A DNA stretch of 6,073 bases from a bacterium. GTDB lineage: Bacteria; CAIWAD01. Every line of letters begins with the position of its first letter. Positions within the stretch are counted from its first letter, which is position 1. Made by a program: the position numbers and the translations under genes. This document shows positions 1 to 6,073 of the stretch, in pieces. The notes below the pieces were generated by a model. It made no database searches. It saw nothing but the letters and a program-made list of their open reading frames with translations, and was not told the DNA's origin. The stretch covers positions 1 through 6,073 of the forward strand of contig JAUXWS010000098.1 of NCBI GenBank assembly GCA_030685015.1, read 5' to 3'.

Positions 1-60
1 CGCGCTACGCGCTCCTTCCGGCGCTCCGGGCGCGGGTGGCGTGAACCTCTCGATGGGCAT
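1..60 (-). CDS. 5' end of a truncated unknown gene
   Basis: A start codon (ATG, 60-58) opens a frame that stays open to the left edge and gives only 20 residues, beginning MPIERFTPPAP. A purine-rich Shine-Dalgarno (AAGGAGAGGAG) lies just upstream, with one GGAG six bases from the ATG, which makes the start credible. The residues are Pro/Ala/Gly-rich and no family can be recognised. The gene points the same way as the main operon but is about 480 bp beyond it, behind a terminator-like hairpin and several palindromes, so it probably has its own promoter. The reading rests on the ribosome binding site and an open frame, not on homology. Confidence 0.5.
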   Translation of the reverse strand, partial: MPIERFTPPAPGAPEGARSA

Positions 61-74
61 GCGGCTCTCCTCTC

Positions 75-111
75 CTTGGACCATGAGATTTACCTCACTT
101 TTGTGTCCAAG
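75..111 (-). repeat. Inverted repeat in leader of left gene
   Basis: The arms CTTGGAC (75-81) and GTCCAAG (105-111) are perfect complements. Inside them a second pair, TGAG (84-87) and CTCA (94-97), can extend the structure across an uneven internal loop. The left arm touches the Shine-Dalgarno of the gene starting at 60, so folding of the mRNA leader could affect its translation. The long asymmetric interior makes this a moderate structure at best. Confidence 0.35.
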
Positions 112-132
112 AAAACTGGGGGCGAGTCACGA

Positions 133-540: not shown

Positions 541-1143
541 TCAATTGGCCGGGGCGGGAACCGGTTCGGATGTCGCCGTGACCATGGGCAGTCCCGCCAG
601 GCGGCGCACCAAGGCGATGAGCGAGCGGTCCTCCACCTCCGGATCCGGTGGGCAGGCAGGCACGCCCGCGGTGTCCAGCAGATCGTGTCCCTCTTGGATA
701 ATGCGGTGGATCTCCTTGAAGTCGCGCTGGGCGTCCTGAAGCGGTTTGGCCAGACTGTCCGCGGCTTCCATCACCGCATCGTAGCCGTCGCTGAAGGCCG
801 TCCCCACGAAAAGCAGGCGCTTCCGTGCGTTGTACTCGGCCAGGGCCGCGGCTTCCGCGCGGGGCAAGTAGCGCGTCACTTGGTCAAGGGCGCATTCGGC
901 TCCCTCCTTCCACCGGGTGGCATGGTCGTTGCGCACCCTCTGCAGTTCATCCGGATGGACCTTCCCCTCCTGCATTCGAGTGCGTGCCTCCTGCAATCCA
1001 TCCTGGAAAGCCAGGCGGTAAGTGTCGTCGACATGGGCGTCGATCAGGGGCGGCACGCCAACATGGGTACCTTCGAGCCCCTGACGGTAACCGGCCAGAC
1101 AGGCCTTGCTGATCTGGTGGACGAGGATCGGGTCGCGGGTCAT
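541..1143 (-). CDS. Unknown 200-residue helical protein, last gene of operon
   Basis: The chosen start (ATG, 1143-1141) overlaps the upstream TGA as ATGA and has AGGAG seven bases upstream; an in-frame extension further upstream lies inside the previous gene. The product begins MTRDPILVHQ. It is soluble, rich in charged and Ala/Leu residues and probably mostly helical, with a Pro/Ala tail ending PVPAPAN. There is no signal peptide or membrane segment. A short motif, aromatic-x-(Asp/Glu/Gln)-Gly, recurs as YRQG (19-22), FQDG (46-49), WKEG (78-81) and FSDG (117-120), each in a similar helical setting, which suggests degenerate internal repeats. No family was recognised. Translational coupling to the HU-like gene suggests it works with the DNA-handling proteins of this operon. 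Confidence 0.85.
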   Translation of the reverse strand: MTRDPILVHQISKACLAGYRQGLEGTHVGVPPLIDAHVDDTYRLAFQDGLQEARTRMQEGKVHPDELQRVRNDHATRWKEGAECALDQVTRYLPRAEAAALAEYNARKRLLFVGTAFSDGYDAVMEAADSLAKPLQDAQRDFKEIHRIIQEGHDLLDTAGVPACPPDPEVEDRSLIALVRRLAGLPMVTATSEPVPAPAN

Positions 1144-1574
1144 TGGGCGTCTCCTGGTTGGGGCGGATCCGCCGGCACGCACAGCGTGCCGGGGGACTCC
1201 AGCGGAATTGGTTGCATCGTGGGTCGTGCCAAGGGCTCATGGGGAACGCTCGCTCCGGGACGCGACCCTTCCCGCATGCCCAGGCGCGCGGCGAGGCTGG
1301 CTCGGCGCTGGGCATTGGCATGGAATCGAAGAGAGGGCCGATCTGGCAGGGTCATGGGCTCCCGGCCATGCAGGCCGTGGCGCAAGCCCCCCTTACGCAG
1401 GTAGCACTCGAAGTGACCCAGGTACTTCAGCGTGAGCCGGTCGCCCAGGTTCAGCTGGTCAAGCAGATCGGTGAGCGCGCTGGTCACGTCGTGCACGGCC
1501 CGCCGGGCCTCGATCAACGTGAGGCCGTGGGTGGAGCGCAGGCGGCGCACCAGGTCGGATTGGGTCAACGTCAT
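1140..1574 (-). CDS. HU/IHF-family DNA-bending protein, divergent
   Basis: The first ~100 residues follow the HU/IHF layout. An N-terminal helical pair (TQSDLVRRLRSTHGLTLIEA, about 4-23, then to ~40) leads to the strand region LTLKYLGHFECYL (47-59), matching the HU GFGTFEV signature. A basic, glycine-rich arm follows (RKGGLRHGLHGREP, 60-73), then SLRFHANAQRRASL (81-94), matching the final strand and helix. By hand alignment the conserved Arg-Asn-Pro arm tip, whose proline intercalates in DNA, is not kept, so bending may differ. Residues ~100-144 are a Pro-rich tail absent from the ~90-residue HU proteins. Its start overlaps the upstream stop as ATGA with AGGAG five bases before it. HU relatives are common in plasmid, phage and ICE replication modules. 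Family call good; role inferred. Confidence 0.82.
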   Translation of the reverse strand: MTLTQSDLVRRLRSTHGLTLIEARRAVHDVTSALTDLLDQLNLGDRLTLKYLGHFECYLRKGGLRHGLHGREPMTLPDRPSLRFHANAQRRASLAARLGMREGSRPGASVPHEPLARPTMQPIPLESPGTLCVPADPPQPGDAQ

Positions 1575-2224
1575 CTTGTCTCCTGTGGATTAGGGGCAGG
1601 GCTGTCGGGGAATGGGGTTGGAGATTGCGCATGCTCGAGAACCAGGCCCAGCACCCATGCCAGATGATCGGTCTGGGCCTTGGGGGGCCGCCGGCACAGG
1701 GACGCCTCGGATGAGGTCGGCTCCATCAACCGCGCGCGGACACGCTCCACCAAACCCCGGTCCACTTCCAACAGCCGCCTGACGCGCACGTCCAGGGGCT
1801 GCGGACAGCCCGCCACGTCCAGCACTTGGTTGGGGGTCAGTTGTCGCCATCCAGGATGCTCGGGTGGCCGGGCGGCCAGGGACCGCCGCACGTGTTCGGC
1901 TTCTCGCTCCTTTCGCATGGCTTCGTCGCGAAGCCAGAGACGGTCAAAGGCGCGGCGCAGGTCCTTGCGGATTTGGATGCGTTTGGCACGGCCGGCGTCG
2001 TCCCCACCCAGGAGGAGATCGCGACGTTTCAGCTGGTCGAGATCGCGGGTGAGGAAGTAGGCTCCCCGCACATCGCGCAGCGAGGCGGCCTCCAGCGCCC
2101 TTTGCACGTCCGGCCCATAAGAACTCGACCGGCCCAGCAAGTCCAGGAGACCCCAGGCGCCCGGGGTGGCGAAGTAGACGGGCCGTTCTCCACTGGGCCA
2201 GCGGTCGATGCGTTCTCCTGTCAT
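1571..2224 (-). CDS. Unknown 217-residue charged protein
   Basis: The start (ATG, 2224-2222) has AAGGAG upstream with GGAG five bases from it, in the 14-bp gap after the preceding TGA. Its own TGA overlaps the HU-like start. The product is soluble. Residues 1-65 (MTGERIDRWP, then PVYFATPGAWGLLDLL and RGAYFLTRDLDQL) mix aromatic and hydrophobic residues and may form a small fold. Residues ~76-116 are a strongly charged Arg/Lys/Glu helix that could be coiled coil. QLTPNQVLDVAG (128-139), with the helical stretch after it, resembles a short HTH-like or structural segment. The tail (~200-217) is Pro-rich. No family was recognised. Position between a replication protein and an HU-like protein suggests a replication or partition accessory role, by context only. 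Confidence 0.82.
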   Translation of the reverse strand: MTGERIDRWPSGERPVYFATPGAWGLLDLLGRSSSYGPDVQRALEAASLRDVRGAYFLTRDLDQLKRRDLLLGGDDAGRAKRIQIRKDLRRAFDRLWLRDEAMRKEREAEHVRRSLAARPPEHPGWRQLTPNQVLDVAGCPQPLDVRVRRLLEVDRGLVERVRARLMEPTSSEASLCRRPPKAQTDHLAWVLGLVLEHAQSPTPFPDSPAPNPQETR

Positions 2225-2238
2225 GGTGGCTCCTTGGG

Positions 2239-2664
2239 TCAGAAGGGGATGTCATCGGTTCCGGTGGGACTGGGCGCCGTCTGCGCGCCACTTCCTCCGG
2301 CGGGCACATGCAAGGATTCCAAGAGGGCCGTCGGGAGGGTCTCCTCACCGCCATCCTGCGGCACGGACAGTTTGCGCAGGGCCGCCTGCAGCCTCTCTTG
2401 CGGGATGTGGAAACACTCCTCATTCTTCGACGGCCCAGCGCCACGAAGCACGCGCTGCTGCTGGCGCGTCTTGGACTCGGTGACCCCCATTTCGAACAGG
2501 GACGCGCGCAACCACTCCACCTCATGGTTCACATGGGCAGGCAGCATGCGCTGTTCGTGCAACACCTTTTCGATGCAGGTCAGCAGTTCGGCCGCGGGAT
2601 ACCAGTCCTGCCGCCGCCCCGACTGGTTGAAGGCCATCAGGATAGGGCCCTTCTCCTCCAGCAC
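2239..2664 (-). CDS. C-terminal part of primase-helicase after in-frame amber; SSB-like tip
   Basis: As an independent gene it would start at GTG (2664-2662), which has no clear Shine-Dalgarno, or at ATG (2637-2635) with AAGGG about ten bases upstream. The frame is the same as the primase-helicase, and the codons between TAG and GTG already read NPKALYLQVLAD. That fits directly into the following helix (VLEEKG) and WYPAAELL (21-28), so the domain seems to begin before any start codon. LHEQRMLPAHV through VEWLRASLFEMGV (~35-61) resembles the winged-helix-like end block of DUF3631-type helicases. Residues ~102-134 are a flexible Gly/Pro/Ala/Thr linker. The protein ends TDDIPF, a near match to the SSB tip DDDIPF that recruits replication and repair enzymes. 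Most likely the true C-terminus of the upstream protein, made separately, by readthrough, or cut off by mutation. Confidence 0.7.
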   Translation of the reverse strand: MLEEKGPILMAFNQSGRRQDWYPAAELLTCIEKVLHEQRMLPAHVNHEVEWLRASLFEMGVTESKTRQQQRVLRGAGPSKNEECFHIPQERLQAALRKLSVPQDGGEETLPTALLESLHVPAGGSGAQTAPSPTGTDDIPF

Positions 2665-2700
2665 GTCCGCCAGAACCTGCAGATACAGGGCCTTGGGATT

Positions 2701-2703
2701 CTA
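2701..2703 (-). other. In-frame amber (TAG) codon inside primase-helicase frame
   Basis: The codons read GAG-TAG-AAT, between residues EAE and NPK of one 998-codon frame (5235-2239). Coding character continues on both sides without a shift. It is the only TAG among the stops of this operon; the five other complete frames end in TGA. One base change would restore Gln, Glu, Lys, Leu, Ser, Trp or Tyr. The surrounding sequence does not match the known CARYYA readthrough context. Confidence 0.75.
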
Positions 2704-5235
2704 CTCGGCTTCCAGCGCCTTGTGCTCCACCTCTTTCACCTGACGCAGTTCCATCAGCGTGGCCTCCAGGATGGAGCCTTCCCCGCGCTCCACGTCCAGG
2801 TGTCGGGCAATGGTCAACGGTGGCAGCCAGAGCTCCCGATCGCGGCTGCCCAATCGCCTGCGGTCCACGTTGCGCATGTCATGGGTGACCCGTTCGTGGA
2901 GAGCCAGGCCGTTGCGAAGGCTCCAAACATGCAGCTGGTTGCGCAGGACCCGGGAGGTGATCGCCGCTTCGCGGGCGTCATGGTTCATATCCCCTTCGGG
3001 CAAGTGGTCCGCATCCGCCTCCTTGGTGTGGATGGCCAAGCAGCGGCTCCTCAGGACGTGCTGGATGCGGCCAATGGATCCAAGGCATTTGGGACCGAAC
3101 ACGCAGCGCTCCACGGGCTGCTGGCTCTCGGCATCGCCTTTGGGTAGGATCGCCCCCGCCTGGTACCCGATCAGCAGGATCAGCATCAGGAACTCCTCGC
3201 GTGACCCGGGCCGCGGATTCAGTAGACGCTCCGCCTCATCGATGATGAGCGTGCCCGACGTGTTGGCCACATGCATGCTGGCAGCCGCCTCCGTGGGCCC
3301 GGCACATTTCATGGCGTTGAAGGCCAAGCGCGACACGAAGCTCAAGGCGGTCGTCTTGCCCGATGCCTTGCTGCCATGGAAATGCAGATAGGGCACGGCG
3401 TTGAAGGCGGGAAACACGTAGGTCATCAGGATCCACGTGGCCAGCAAGTCCAGATCCCGGGGATCGGGAAACCAGAGGAAGCGGGTGAGCAGCCGCTTGA
3501 CCTCGTCAAAGAGGTGGCAGCCGGACACGGGTGGGCACTGGTTGTCCAAGAACAAAAACATGTTGTGCGCGAAGGCAGATTCTTGGTCCCAAACGGGGTA
3601 CTTGCGCCCTGGAAAGCGCTTGTATTCCTCTTCATCCTGGGCAAAGAGCGAGTACGGCTCGGTACTCACGTTGAGGCCATCGGGCAGGTTCTGGACGATG
3701 ATCAACTCTTTGTTGACCACATGCACCGGAGTCCCGTCCGATGCCGACATGGGTTCCGTGCGTTGGATATGGACGCCCATGCGCCACGTGGGGACATCGC
3801 CATCGTGCCAGAGACAGAGTCCTGGCTGGAGGATTTGCCGGACCAAGGGGACCTTCGTGCCCGGACTTGTCGACCCTGCGGCATCCGGTCCCGATCCAGT
3901 GGGGGTGGTACGGTTCTGCGGCGAAGACCCGCTTGAGGAACTGGCAGCCAGACGGCTCTGCAGTTCAGCAAGGGGTGTGGGCACGTGTTTCGTCACTCGT
4001 TTGAGCAGGGCCTTGTGTCCCAGGCTGGAGCGCATGCGGATCACGTCAAACACGGGCTCCAGATCGCTTTCCTTCAAGCATTCCGCTTCCTTCGGCAAGC
4101 GGGCGATCAGCATGTCGAGGAGATCCGGCGCTTGCCGCAGCAGGTCCAGGAATTCCTCTTTCGTACCGCCGGCGCGTGCCCAGTCGTTGATGTCCTTGGC
4201 GCCTGGCATGTGCAGCACATGCACATCGCCGTCCTTCATGACCGCCTGGATGGCCATGGCGCTCTTCAGCGCTCGACCCCTTCCTGCCGAATCGTTGTCC
4301 CATGCCAACGTCACGCGCTTCAAATGGGCAAAGCGATGGGCGTTCTTCGCGGTTTCGAGACCCAGGTTGCCCACCGCCGGAATGCCAAAGGCGGCCACCT
4401 GCAAGGCATCCGGAATCCCTTCCGCCAACACGACGGATCGGTCCGGATGGCGCAGGGCGTCCTCGTTCCAGAGGCCGGCCGCCAGGCCTGCCAAGTGCAC
4501 GAACTTCCGCTTGTCACTGGAATCGGGCAGTGCGCGAAACGACATGCCGACGGTGCGACCCCGACTCAGAAGAGGAAACAGGATTCGCGTGTCGTGGAAC
4601 AGGAAGCCCCCACGAGCCGCACGCAAGCCTGCCGCTTCAAAGTCCGTCTGGCTATAGGTTGCCAAGACGGGATGCTTGGCTAGGATTCTGTAGAGCCCTT
4701 CCAGGTTGATCAAGCCCAGCTGGTGCTCACGCATCAGATCCTGGGAAAAACCCCGCGCTTCCAAGTAGGCTCGCGCTTGGCGGGCCGGATCCGTGTCTCC
4801 CATCAACCACCCGTGGGTCGCTCGGGTCAGGGCGGACAGGGTCTCTTCACGCTTATGTCGGGCTTCCTGGGCCGCCACCTCTTCCTGGGTCGGGGGCTTC
4901 AGCGGGATGTTGAGCATGTTGGCACCCAGGCGCAGGGCCTCTTTGAAGTCTACGCCGTTCATGAGCATGAGAAGGTCCAGCACGCTTCCACCCGCACGAC
5001 CACCCGGATGGCTCCAACAGGTGAACGTGTTTCGCTGCAGATCCACATCGCATGAAGGATTCTTGTCCTCGTGGCCGGGAAGAGGGCAGCGAATCTTGCC
5101 ATTGGCAGGAATCGGCCGACCCAGCACCATGCCGATCGTCAGGTCCTGTTTGACCCGATCGATCACGTCCTGATACACACCCACAGAGCCTCCCAACGTC
5201 TGTCCCGGGCTGGCGGCACCATCCGCCAGCCTCAT
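2701..5235 (-). CDS. Primase-helicase: zinc-binding, TOPRIM and Walker ATPase domains
   Basis: A replication-initiation type fusion of 844 residues to the TAG. Residues ~20-112 match a CHC2-type primase zinc domain (C50, H55, C73), with H76 where the last Cys is usual. Residues ~265-330 are TOPRIM: VVLAEGIPDA (E272) and LAWDNDSAG (D313, D315) supply the metal-binding acidic residues of DnaG-like primases. A Ser/Pro/Gly linker (~429-462) leads to a P-loop ATPase: Walker A GSKASGKT (621-628), Walker B TLIIDEAE (662-668), and a likely sensor/arginine region, LRSRCLAIHT (728-737). It should synthesise primers and unwind DNA for the element. The ATG at 5235 has a poor ribosome binding site; GTG codons at V18 or V20 follow GGGAGG (5194-5189) and may be the true start. 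The frame continues past the TAG. Confidence 0.93.
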   Translation of the reverse strand: MRLADGAASPGQTLGGSVGVYQDVIDRVKQDLTIGMVLGRPIPANGKIRCPLPGHEDKNPSCDVDLQRNTFTCWSHPGGRAGGSVLDLLMLMNGVDFKEALRLGANMLNIPLKPPTQEEVAAQEARHKREETLSALTRATHGWLMGDTDPARQARAYLEARGFSQDLMREHQLGLINLEGLYRILAKHPVLATYSQTDFEAAGLRAARGGFLFHDTRILFPLLSRGRTVGMSFRALPDSSDKRKFVHLAGLAAGLWNEDALRHPDRSVVLAEGIPDALQVAAFGIPAVGNLGLETAKNAHRFAHLKRVTLAWDNDSAGRGRALKSAMAIQAVMKDGDVHVLHMPGAKDINDWARAGGTKEEFLDLLRQAPDLLDMLIARLPKEAECLKESDLEPVFDVIRMRSSLGHKALLKRVTKHVPTPLAELQSRLAASSSSGSSPQNRTTPTGSGPDAAGSTSPGTKVPLVRQILQPGLCLWHDGDVPTWRMGVHIQRTEPMSASDGTPVHVVNKELIIVQNLPDGLNVSTEPYSLFAQDEEEYKRFPGRKYPVWDQESAFAHNMFLFLDNQCPPVSGCHLFDEVKRLLTRFLWFPDPRDLDLLATWILMTYVFPAFNAVPYLHFHGSKASGKTTALSFVSRLAFNAMKCAGPTEAAASMHVANTSGTLIIDEAERLLNPRPGSREEFLMLILLIGYQAGAILPKGDAESQQPVERCVFGPKCLGSIGRIQHVLRSRCLAIHTKEADADHLPEGDMNHDAREAAITSRVLRNQLHVWSLRNGLALHERVTHDMRNVDRRRLGSRDRELWLPPLTIARHLDVERGEGSILEATLMELRQVKEVEHKALEAE
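5189..5194 (-). promoter_or_regulatory. Shine-Dalgarno that may set a later primase start
   Basis: GGGAGG on the minus strand lies four bases before GTG codon 18 (5184) and ten bases before GTG codon 20 (5178) of the primase frame. The annotated ATG (5235) has only an AAGG one base away. Starting at codon 20 gives MYQDVIDRVKQDL, close to the usual primase N-terminus, so the first 17-19 residues may not be translated. Confidence 0.4.
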
Positions 5236-5341: not shown

Positions 5342-5668
5342 TCAGGCCCTGGACAACATGAAGTCCACCACATCCAGCGGCTCGTACAAGACCATGCGGC
5401 CCACCACCACGTGGCGGGGCACGGGCAGGCCGGCCCAGCGCCGGTTGCGCAGGGTACCCACCGTCCGTTTGAGCACACGGGCCACCTCGACCTCGGTCAA
5501 GAGGGCCGGCTGCCGAGCGGGCGCGTGGCCCAGCTCCCGGTGGATGGCCTCCACCAGGCGCCGGCGGCGCTCCTCGTCGGGCAGGTCGCGGAAGGCCGTG
5601 TGGGCCTGGGACACCGTGGTCTGGCGCGCGGGGCGCTCGTGGATGAGGGGCGAATGGGTGTGTCGCAT
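5342..5668 (-). CDS. AlpA/excisionase-type winged-HTH DNA-binding protein
   Basis: Residues ~57-104 fit the small winged-HTH of AlpA, excisionases and MerR relatives. LLTEVEVARVLKR is the first helix pair, TVGTLRNRRWAG the recognition helix, and PRHVVVGRMVLYEPLDVVDF the wing and final helix. Residues 1-50 are basic and charged (DEERRRRLVEAIHREL, 31-46), probably an extra helix for dimer or partner contacts. The start (ATG, 5668-5666) has GGAG nine bases upstream (5681-5678) and is the only good one. Proteins of this type control gene expression or excision of mobile elements. Being first in the operon, next to the divergent control region, suggests it binds the inverted repeats there and may autoregulate. 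Whether it is a regulator or an excision factor cannot be told; no integrase is in view. Confidence 0.85.
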   Translation of the reverse strand: MRHTHSPLIHERPARQTTVSQAHTAFRDLPDEERRRRLVEAIHRELGHAPARQPALLTEVEVARVLKRTVGTLRNRRWAGLPVPRHVVVGRMVLYEPLDVVDFMLSRA

Positions 5669-5903: not shown

Positions 5904-5932
5904 TTGTGATGATCATTCATCACATTCATAAT
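5904..5932 (+). promoter_or_regulatory. Candidate promoter for the right-hand gene
   Basis: TTGTGA (5904-5909) and CATAAT (5927-5932) are 17 bases apart. They match the sigma70 -35 at four of six and the -10 at five of six positions. It lies in the AT-rich block and would give a leader of about 105 bases before the start at 6044. A perfect TTGACA also occurs at 5891-5896 and another at 5988-5993, but neither has an acceptable -10. Confidence 0.45.
5905..5924. promoter_or_regulatory. Operator-like palindrome over rightward promoter
   Basis: TGTGATGA (5905-5912) and TCATCACA (5917-5924) are perfect inverted arms around TCAT. The palindrome covers most of the candidate -35 box and the spacer of the rightward promoter, so a protein bound there would block RNA polymerase. 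It does not resemble the TTGTCAGGCC repeat or the 133-153 palindrome, so a different regulator is likely. Confidence 0.5.
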
Positions 5933-5951
5933 CCCGATTACGCAGCAGTTT

Positions 5952-5969
5952 CAGCTACCGAAGTGGCTG
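5952..5969 (+). repeat. Leader stem-loop
   Basis: CAGCTAC (5952-5958) and GTGGCTG (5963-5969) form a 7-bp stem with one G-U pair and a CGAA loop in the rightward transcript. On the other strand the loop would be the stable C(UUCG)G with one C-A mismatch. It lies within the predicted leader of the right-hand gene and has no U-tract, so it is not a terminator. Confidence 0.35.
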
Positions 5970-5978
5970 CTGATCAAG

Positions 5979-5992
5979 GTCAATGAGTTGAC
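5979..5992 (+). repeat. Short inverted repeat GTCAA-TGAG-TTGAC
   Basis: Five-base perfect arms with a four-base centre lie between two larger leader hairpins. It also carries one of the TTGACA sequences of the region. Chance occurrence is quite possible at this size. Confidence 0.25.
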
Positions 5993-6013
5993 ATGTCCCA
6001 CCCCGGGCCGATC

Positions 6014-6032
6014 TTCGTGACGCATTCACGAA
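6014..6032 (+). promoter_or_regulatory. Hairpin abutting the ribosome binding site of right gene
   Basis: TTCGTGA (6014-6020) and TCACGAA (6026-6032) form a perfect 7-bp stem with a five-base loop. The AGGAG Shine-Dalgarno (6033-6037) begins at the very next base, six bases before the ATG at 6044. The stem leaves AGGAG exposed but could hinder or help ribosome docking, or serve as a protein-binding site for translational control. Confidence 0.4.
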
Positions 6033-6043
6033 AGGAGCCCATC

Positions 6044-6073
6044 ATGCCGTCCTCACTCAGTATCCAGTTTCAG
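6044..6073 (+). CDS. 5' end of a truncated unknown gene, divergent
   Basis: Only ten codons are in the window (MPSSLSIQFQ). The ATG (6044-6046) follows AGGAG with a six-base gap, an excellent site, and lies downstream of a candidate promoter and a structured leader. Too little protein is visible to name a family. Its position, divergent from the HTH-primase operon and sharing its control region, suggests a regulator or another element gene, but that is inference. Confidence 0.6.
   Translation, partial: MPSSLSIQFQ

Follow-up and report, generated by a model that had tools for sequence, protein, structure and literature searches.

A bacterial primase-helicase gene interrupted by a single in-frame amber codon ahead of a predicted winged-helix tail

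Gene content and reading frame of the window

The window, i.e., the whole stretch of DNA analysed here, is one entire contig, C98 (6073 bp), from a genome of 3.6 Mb in 105 contigs with an estimated completeness of 97%. The gene order between its edges is an HTH/excisionase-like gene (5345..5668), the primase-helicase, a gene for a 217-aa protein (1574..2224), a gene for an HU-like DNA-binding protein (1143..1574; PF00216), and a gene for a 213-aa protein (544..1182), all on the minus strand, so that the HTH gene lies upstream of the primase-helicase in the same run and the 217-aa gene downstream. Relatives of the HTH gene are found in two further elements of the same genome, on contigs C100 and C58, and also beside a homologue of the primase-helicase in the bin G001; the C100 and C58 elements also contain homologues of the 217-aa gene, and one of the 213-aa gene follows the primase in G001 (27%). 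The rest of the gene run shows no obvious decay. At the right edge begins an IS1595-family insertion sequence (5932..6073, plus strand), a repeat common to contigs C37, C39, and C13. The left edge is a 129-bp repeat (1..129, plus strand), common to the contig ends of C99 and C9 and probably an insertion-sequence end, for which Pfam gave no identification.

The minus strand from 5235 to 2239 contains one internal stop, the TAG at 2703-2701, and a terminal TGA at 2241-2239; translation thus agrees with the sequence-only reading, which had described an in-frame TAG and no other stop in this interval. But for the TAG, no stop interrupts the frame between 5289 and 2242. It consists of the 5' part of the primase-helicase gene (2704..5235, minus strand; 844 codons from ATG 5235), assigned by Pfam, NCBIfam, and PHROG matches, structure, and homologues; of the TAG itself as codon 845 (2701..2703, minus strand); and of a separated 3' part of 153 codons (2242..2700, minus strand). 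The HTH, 217-aa, 144-aa, and 213-aa frames and the tail frame all end in TGA, as had also been noted from the sequence.

The start of the gene is more likely GTG 5187 than ATG 5235, because GGGAGG is located just upstream of the former, while ATG 5235 has a weak Shine-Dalgarno match, and because the protein would then begin with VGVY, similar to VGHY at the beginning of the C100 and C58 proteins.

The DNA is 64% GC, and plus-strand frames of 340–410 codons are also open across the same stretch. Long open frames are cheap in such a window, hence, homology is needed to decide between one gene and two. The codon-usage score of the tail is 0.31 (GC3 0.81) vs. 0.23 (GC3 0.76) for the upstream part, and the remaining same-strand frames score negatively; this signal is only supportive, since one opposite-strand frame scores 0.29, nearly the same.

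Domains on the two sides of the TAG

The first 844 codons encode, in this order, a CHC2 zinc ribbon, DNAG_N, TOPRIM, and a P-loop ATPase. PF01807 (32.1 bits), PF13362 (33.9 bits), and PF08275 (29.6 bits) all score above their gathering cut-offs, and the CHC2 zinc ribbon together with the TOPRIM core makes this a DnaG-type primase module. The ATPase motifs, SGKT and DEAE, are read directly in the sequence, and the catalytic motifs are intact. The predicted model of the full-length protein has a mean pLDDT of only 52 and was used only for the zinc ribbon, TOPRIM, and C-terminal parts; in it the zinc ribbon matches 1d0q (Z 11.2), and two helices, 822–845 and 847–866, meet at the TAG.

The 153 codons after the TAG encode a putative winged helix of about 112 residues, a flexible linker, and an acidic DDIPF tip (2242-2256), followed by TGA. 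Modelled alone, the tail has pLDDT mostly 70–88 over residues 1–112, with a predicted fold of helix, strand, helix, helix, two-strand wing, and helix, i.e., the three helices and beta wing of a winged helix. Winged-helix proteins dominate its structure matches (best Z 7.3); among them are, at Z 5–7, Cdt1, the Cdc6/ORC complex, TubR, TcpK, and replication terminator protein, and in the predicted model this range reflects a common fold rather than kinship. According to the prediction, a complete winged-helix domain thus begins right after the TAG, and the earlier suggestion that the residues following the stop open such a block is borne out by homologues, a tail profile, predicted models, and structure matches alike. 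From the fold only, the winged helix likely holds the DNA of the element.

The domain order and the DnaG structure matches are shared with DnaG-type primases (TIGR01391; CHC2, DNAG_N, TOPRIM). Housekeeping DnaG carries a DnaB-binding domain after the primase core; the window protein instead has the P-loop ATPase and the winged helix there, and its TIGR01391 score of 115.8 bits is below the cut-off of 283.6 for the housekeeping DnaG equivalog. With primase-helicase fusions of the T7 gp4 type it shares the primase and the ATPase in one chain and TOPRIM matches to 1nui and 1q57, although the C-terminal winged helix and the acidic tip are additional here, and the ATPase part gave no sequence match with the T7 helicase. 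An ATPase followed by a winged helix is also seen in replication initiators of the SaPI and P4 type, and the SaPIBov1 initiator (8tch) matches the tail at Z 5.4; this likeness is limited to the common winged-helix fold, with no sequence similarity shown, and the primase here is of the DnaG type.

An acidic tip ending in PF is present in all copies of the primase and resembles the C-terminal tip of SSB; some neighbouring genes end in a similar way (EDPFA, DDDDPFS). Searching the literature for primases with a tip of the DDIPF type found nothing.

Homologues across the TAG and its decoding

Eight homologues were compared over the junction: four further copies in the same genome (C93, C22, C100, and C58), three in the bin G003, and one in G001. 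The C93, C22, and C100 copies are uninterrupted frames of 960–974 codons; the lengths are 986–994 codons in G003 and about 975 in G001. The C58 paralogue is split in another place, between its primase and ATPase halves (L036:4440-4500, G000:C58), where TAA is followed by an ATG that lies in another frame, 11 nt downstream of GGAAAGG; this is either fission or a frameshift. All eight homologues have a sense codon in the TAG column and remain in frame there; six encode Glu and two Thr. None ends at the TAG ahead of a second, independent gene, the outcome that the sequence-only reading had set against itself. Since all eight run through this column, the comparison shows that the 844- and 153-codon halves are one gene, and the earlier claim of a primase-helicase gene cut by a single amber codon holds.

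The tails of the homologues end in EDLPF, DDLPF, EPLPF, DDVPF, or DDIPF. A profile built from these eight tails aligns with the window tail over position 5 to the end, scoring 10.3 bits, vs. 8.2 bits for the best of 2000 shuffles (hhalign P 5e-4). The tail is 17–22% identical to its relatives, which agrees with how divergent the window copy is overall and is slightly below the expectation from the helicase part (z from -0.3 to -1.2), a difference too small to put a date on the lesion. C58 is the nearest copy to the primase half (59%), whereas identity in the ATPase half is about 33%; likewise, the HTH gene and its counterpart before the G001 homologue share 81% identity, yet the next gene only 38%. 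These uneven identities point to a mosaic origin. No close relatives were returned by pattern-based searches of IMG/VR or by a single-protein search of genome contigs, and an alignment query returned only the two known bins and a weak match. Phage and plasmid records gave partial matches only, over the primase part, and searches with the tail alone found nothing related among 193 genomes, and neither Pfam nor PHROGs assigned it to a family.

Stop codon usage was taken from a 369-kb sample of the genome with 237 genes, which end in TGA (164), TAG (45, about 19%), or TAA (28). A coding-like continuation of at least 60 codons follows 4 of 44 TAG stops and 18 of 190 other stops (p = 1), and in one such case after TAG, the stop simply separates a sugar transferase gene from a gene for a polysaccharide biosynthesis protein. 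Rfam finds 42 tRNA genes in the genome, and ARAGORN reports ordinary anticodons and one tRNA-SeC (UCA); no tRNA with the UAG-reading CUA anticodon is among them. RF1 is present (507.9 bits) and PylS, searched for in the genome, is absent. The stop codon of the XPB-like helicase gene aligns across the sister elements; it is TAG in C100, C22, and C93, and TAA in C58. Given RF1, the tRNA set, the stop usage, and these gene ends, TAG is a terminator both in the host and in the sister elements. The reassignment of TAG to Gln or pyrrolysine, in the genome or in the element, is therefore barely credible, its only attraction being that the frame stays open across the TAG; of the signs that had been suggested for it, no suppressor tRNA and no PylS were found, and TAG is an ordinary stop in the 369-kb sample.

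Programmed or leaky readthrough of the TAG, yielding a short form without the winged helix and a long form, would agree with the position of the TAG at a domain boundary and with the coding-like tail. It was proposed that in-frame stops in prokaryotic genes are often short-lived, and that low-level readthrough of them may occur (Belinky et al., 2021, PMC7918605); the window gene resembles those cases in having a single stop in an otherwise coding-like gene, but that study rests on stops common to several species, whereas the stop in the window is found in one copy only and in none of the eight relatives. RNA folding of the 104 nt beginning at the TAG is no better than that of shuffles (z +0.39), although not every readthrough site has structure, and no suppressor tRNA was found in the genome. 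We consider readthrough improbable; programmed readthrough, as raised by the sequence-only reading, gains no positive evidence from the relatives or from the 3' RNA. More improbable again is an amber codon leaky by design, such that mostly the short primase-helicase without the DNA-binding domain would be made, together with a little full-length protein targeting the DNA of the element itself.

Gene fission would leave a functional 844-codon protein and a tail made separately by restart at one of the first start codons after the TAG, GTG 2664 (12 codons) or ATG 2637 (21 codons). The second of these (2635..2637, minus strand) is preceded by a strong Shine-Dalgarno-like GGAGGAGAAGG, with an anti-Shine-Dalgarno duplex energy of -9.3 vs. 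-8.4 at the 5th percentile of the background, and the C58 copy suggests that splitting does occur among these primase-helicases. However, the spacing from GGAGGAGAAGG to this ATG is long, about 11 nt or more, and the first helix of the tail covers residues 2–22, so that GTG 2664 is within this helix and ATG 2637 at its end; by the predicted fold, a restart at these codons would remove much or all of it. Together with the absence of a split at the TAG site in all eight homologues, this makes fission rather unlikely.

Origin of the interruption and the sister elements

Among the options that had been listed for the TAG, a nonsense mutation and a base-call error stand, while reassignment, pyrrolysine, and programmed readthrough find no support; one such change or error, in one of several divergent copies, accounts for all the observations. 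As judged from the sequence, an error in base calling or assembly would fit the data equally well: the lesion affects one codon of a gene that is open otherwise, the short contig has repeats at its ends, and the contig titles of the related bin G003, a MAG, give a low coverage of 1.5–1.75. However, contig C98 itself shows no direct sign of poor quality, and overall we regard a consensus or base-call error, with the real gene uninterrupted, as unlikely.

We consider it probable that the TAG is a recent nonsense allele in the remnant of a mobile element bounded by insertion sequences, and that it removes the winged helix and the acidic tip. A single nonsense change would have created the TAG right where the ATPase part gives way to the winged helix; a TAG precisely at the domain boundary would also suit a protein with two forms. 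Translation would end there, and the product, at most 844 codons long and presumably truncated in the cell, would keep the primase and ATPase motifs but lack the winged helix and the DDIPF tip, and with them probably its function. The change appears to be recent, since the tail has kept its coding look and carries no second lesion. The nonsense allele is also supported by the C58 copy, the second in this genome to be interrupted, albeit elsewhere. The element, lying between two repeat edges of which one is an insertion sequence, is probably a decaying remnant. More generally, when a single in-frame TAG is followed by a convincing continuation, this is what a fresh nonsense allele or a base error should look like, and paralogues within one genome are enough to demonstrate this.

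A by-product of the analysis is a set of multi-copy elements in one bacterial lineage with a common primase-ATPase-winged-helix protein. In addition, DinG-like and XPB-like helicases and a Rad50-like ATPase are encoded on C100 and C58, which suggests that these are replication modules of mobile elements. In five elements, the XPB/RuvC-like helicase and the primase share one frame with a single stop between them (TAG; TAA in C58), located at L035:6628-6630, L036:5860-5862, L037:3730-3732, L038:3949-3951, and L039:3170-3172, and the primase starts about four to five codons past the helicase stop. Separately, the tRNA-SeC gene reported by ARAGORN is at L085:10051-10134, and hence some in-frame TGA codons of this genome may encode selenocysteine.
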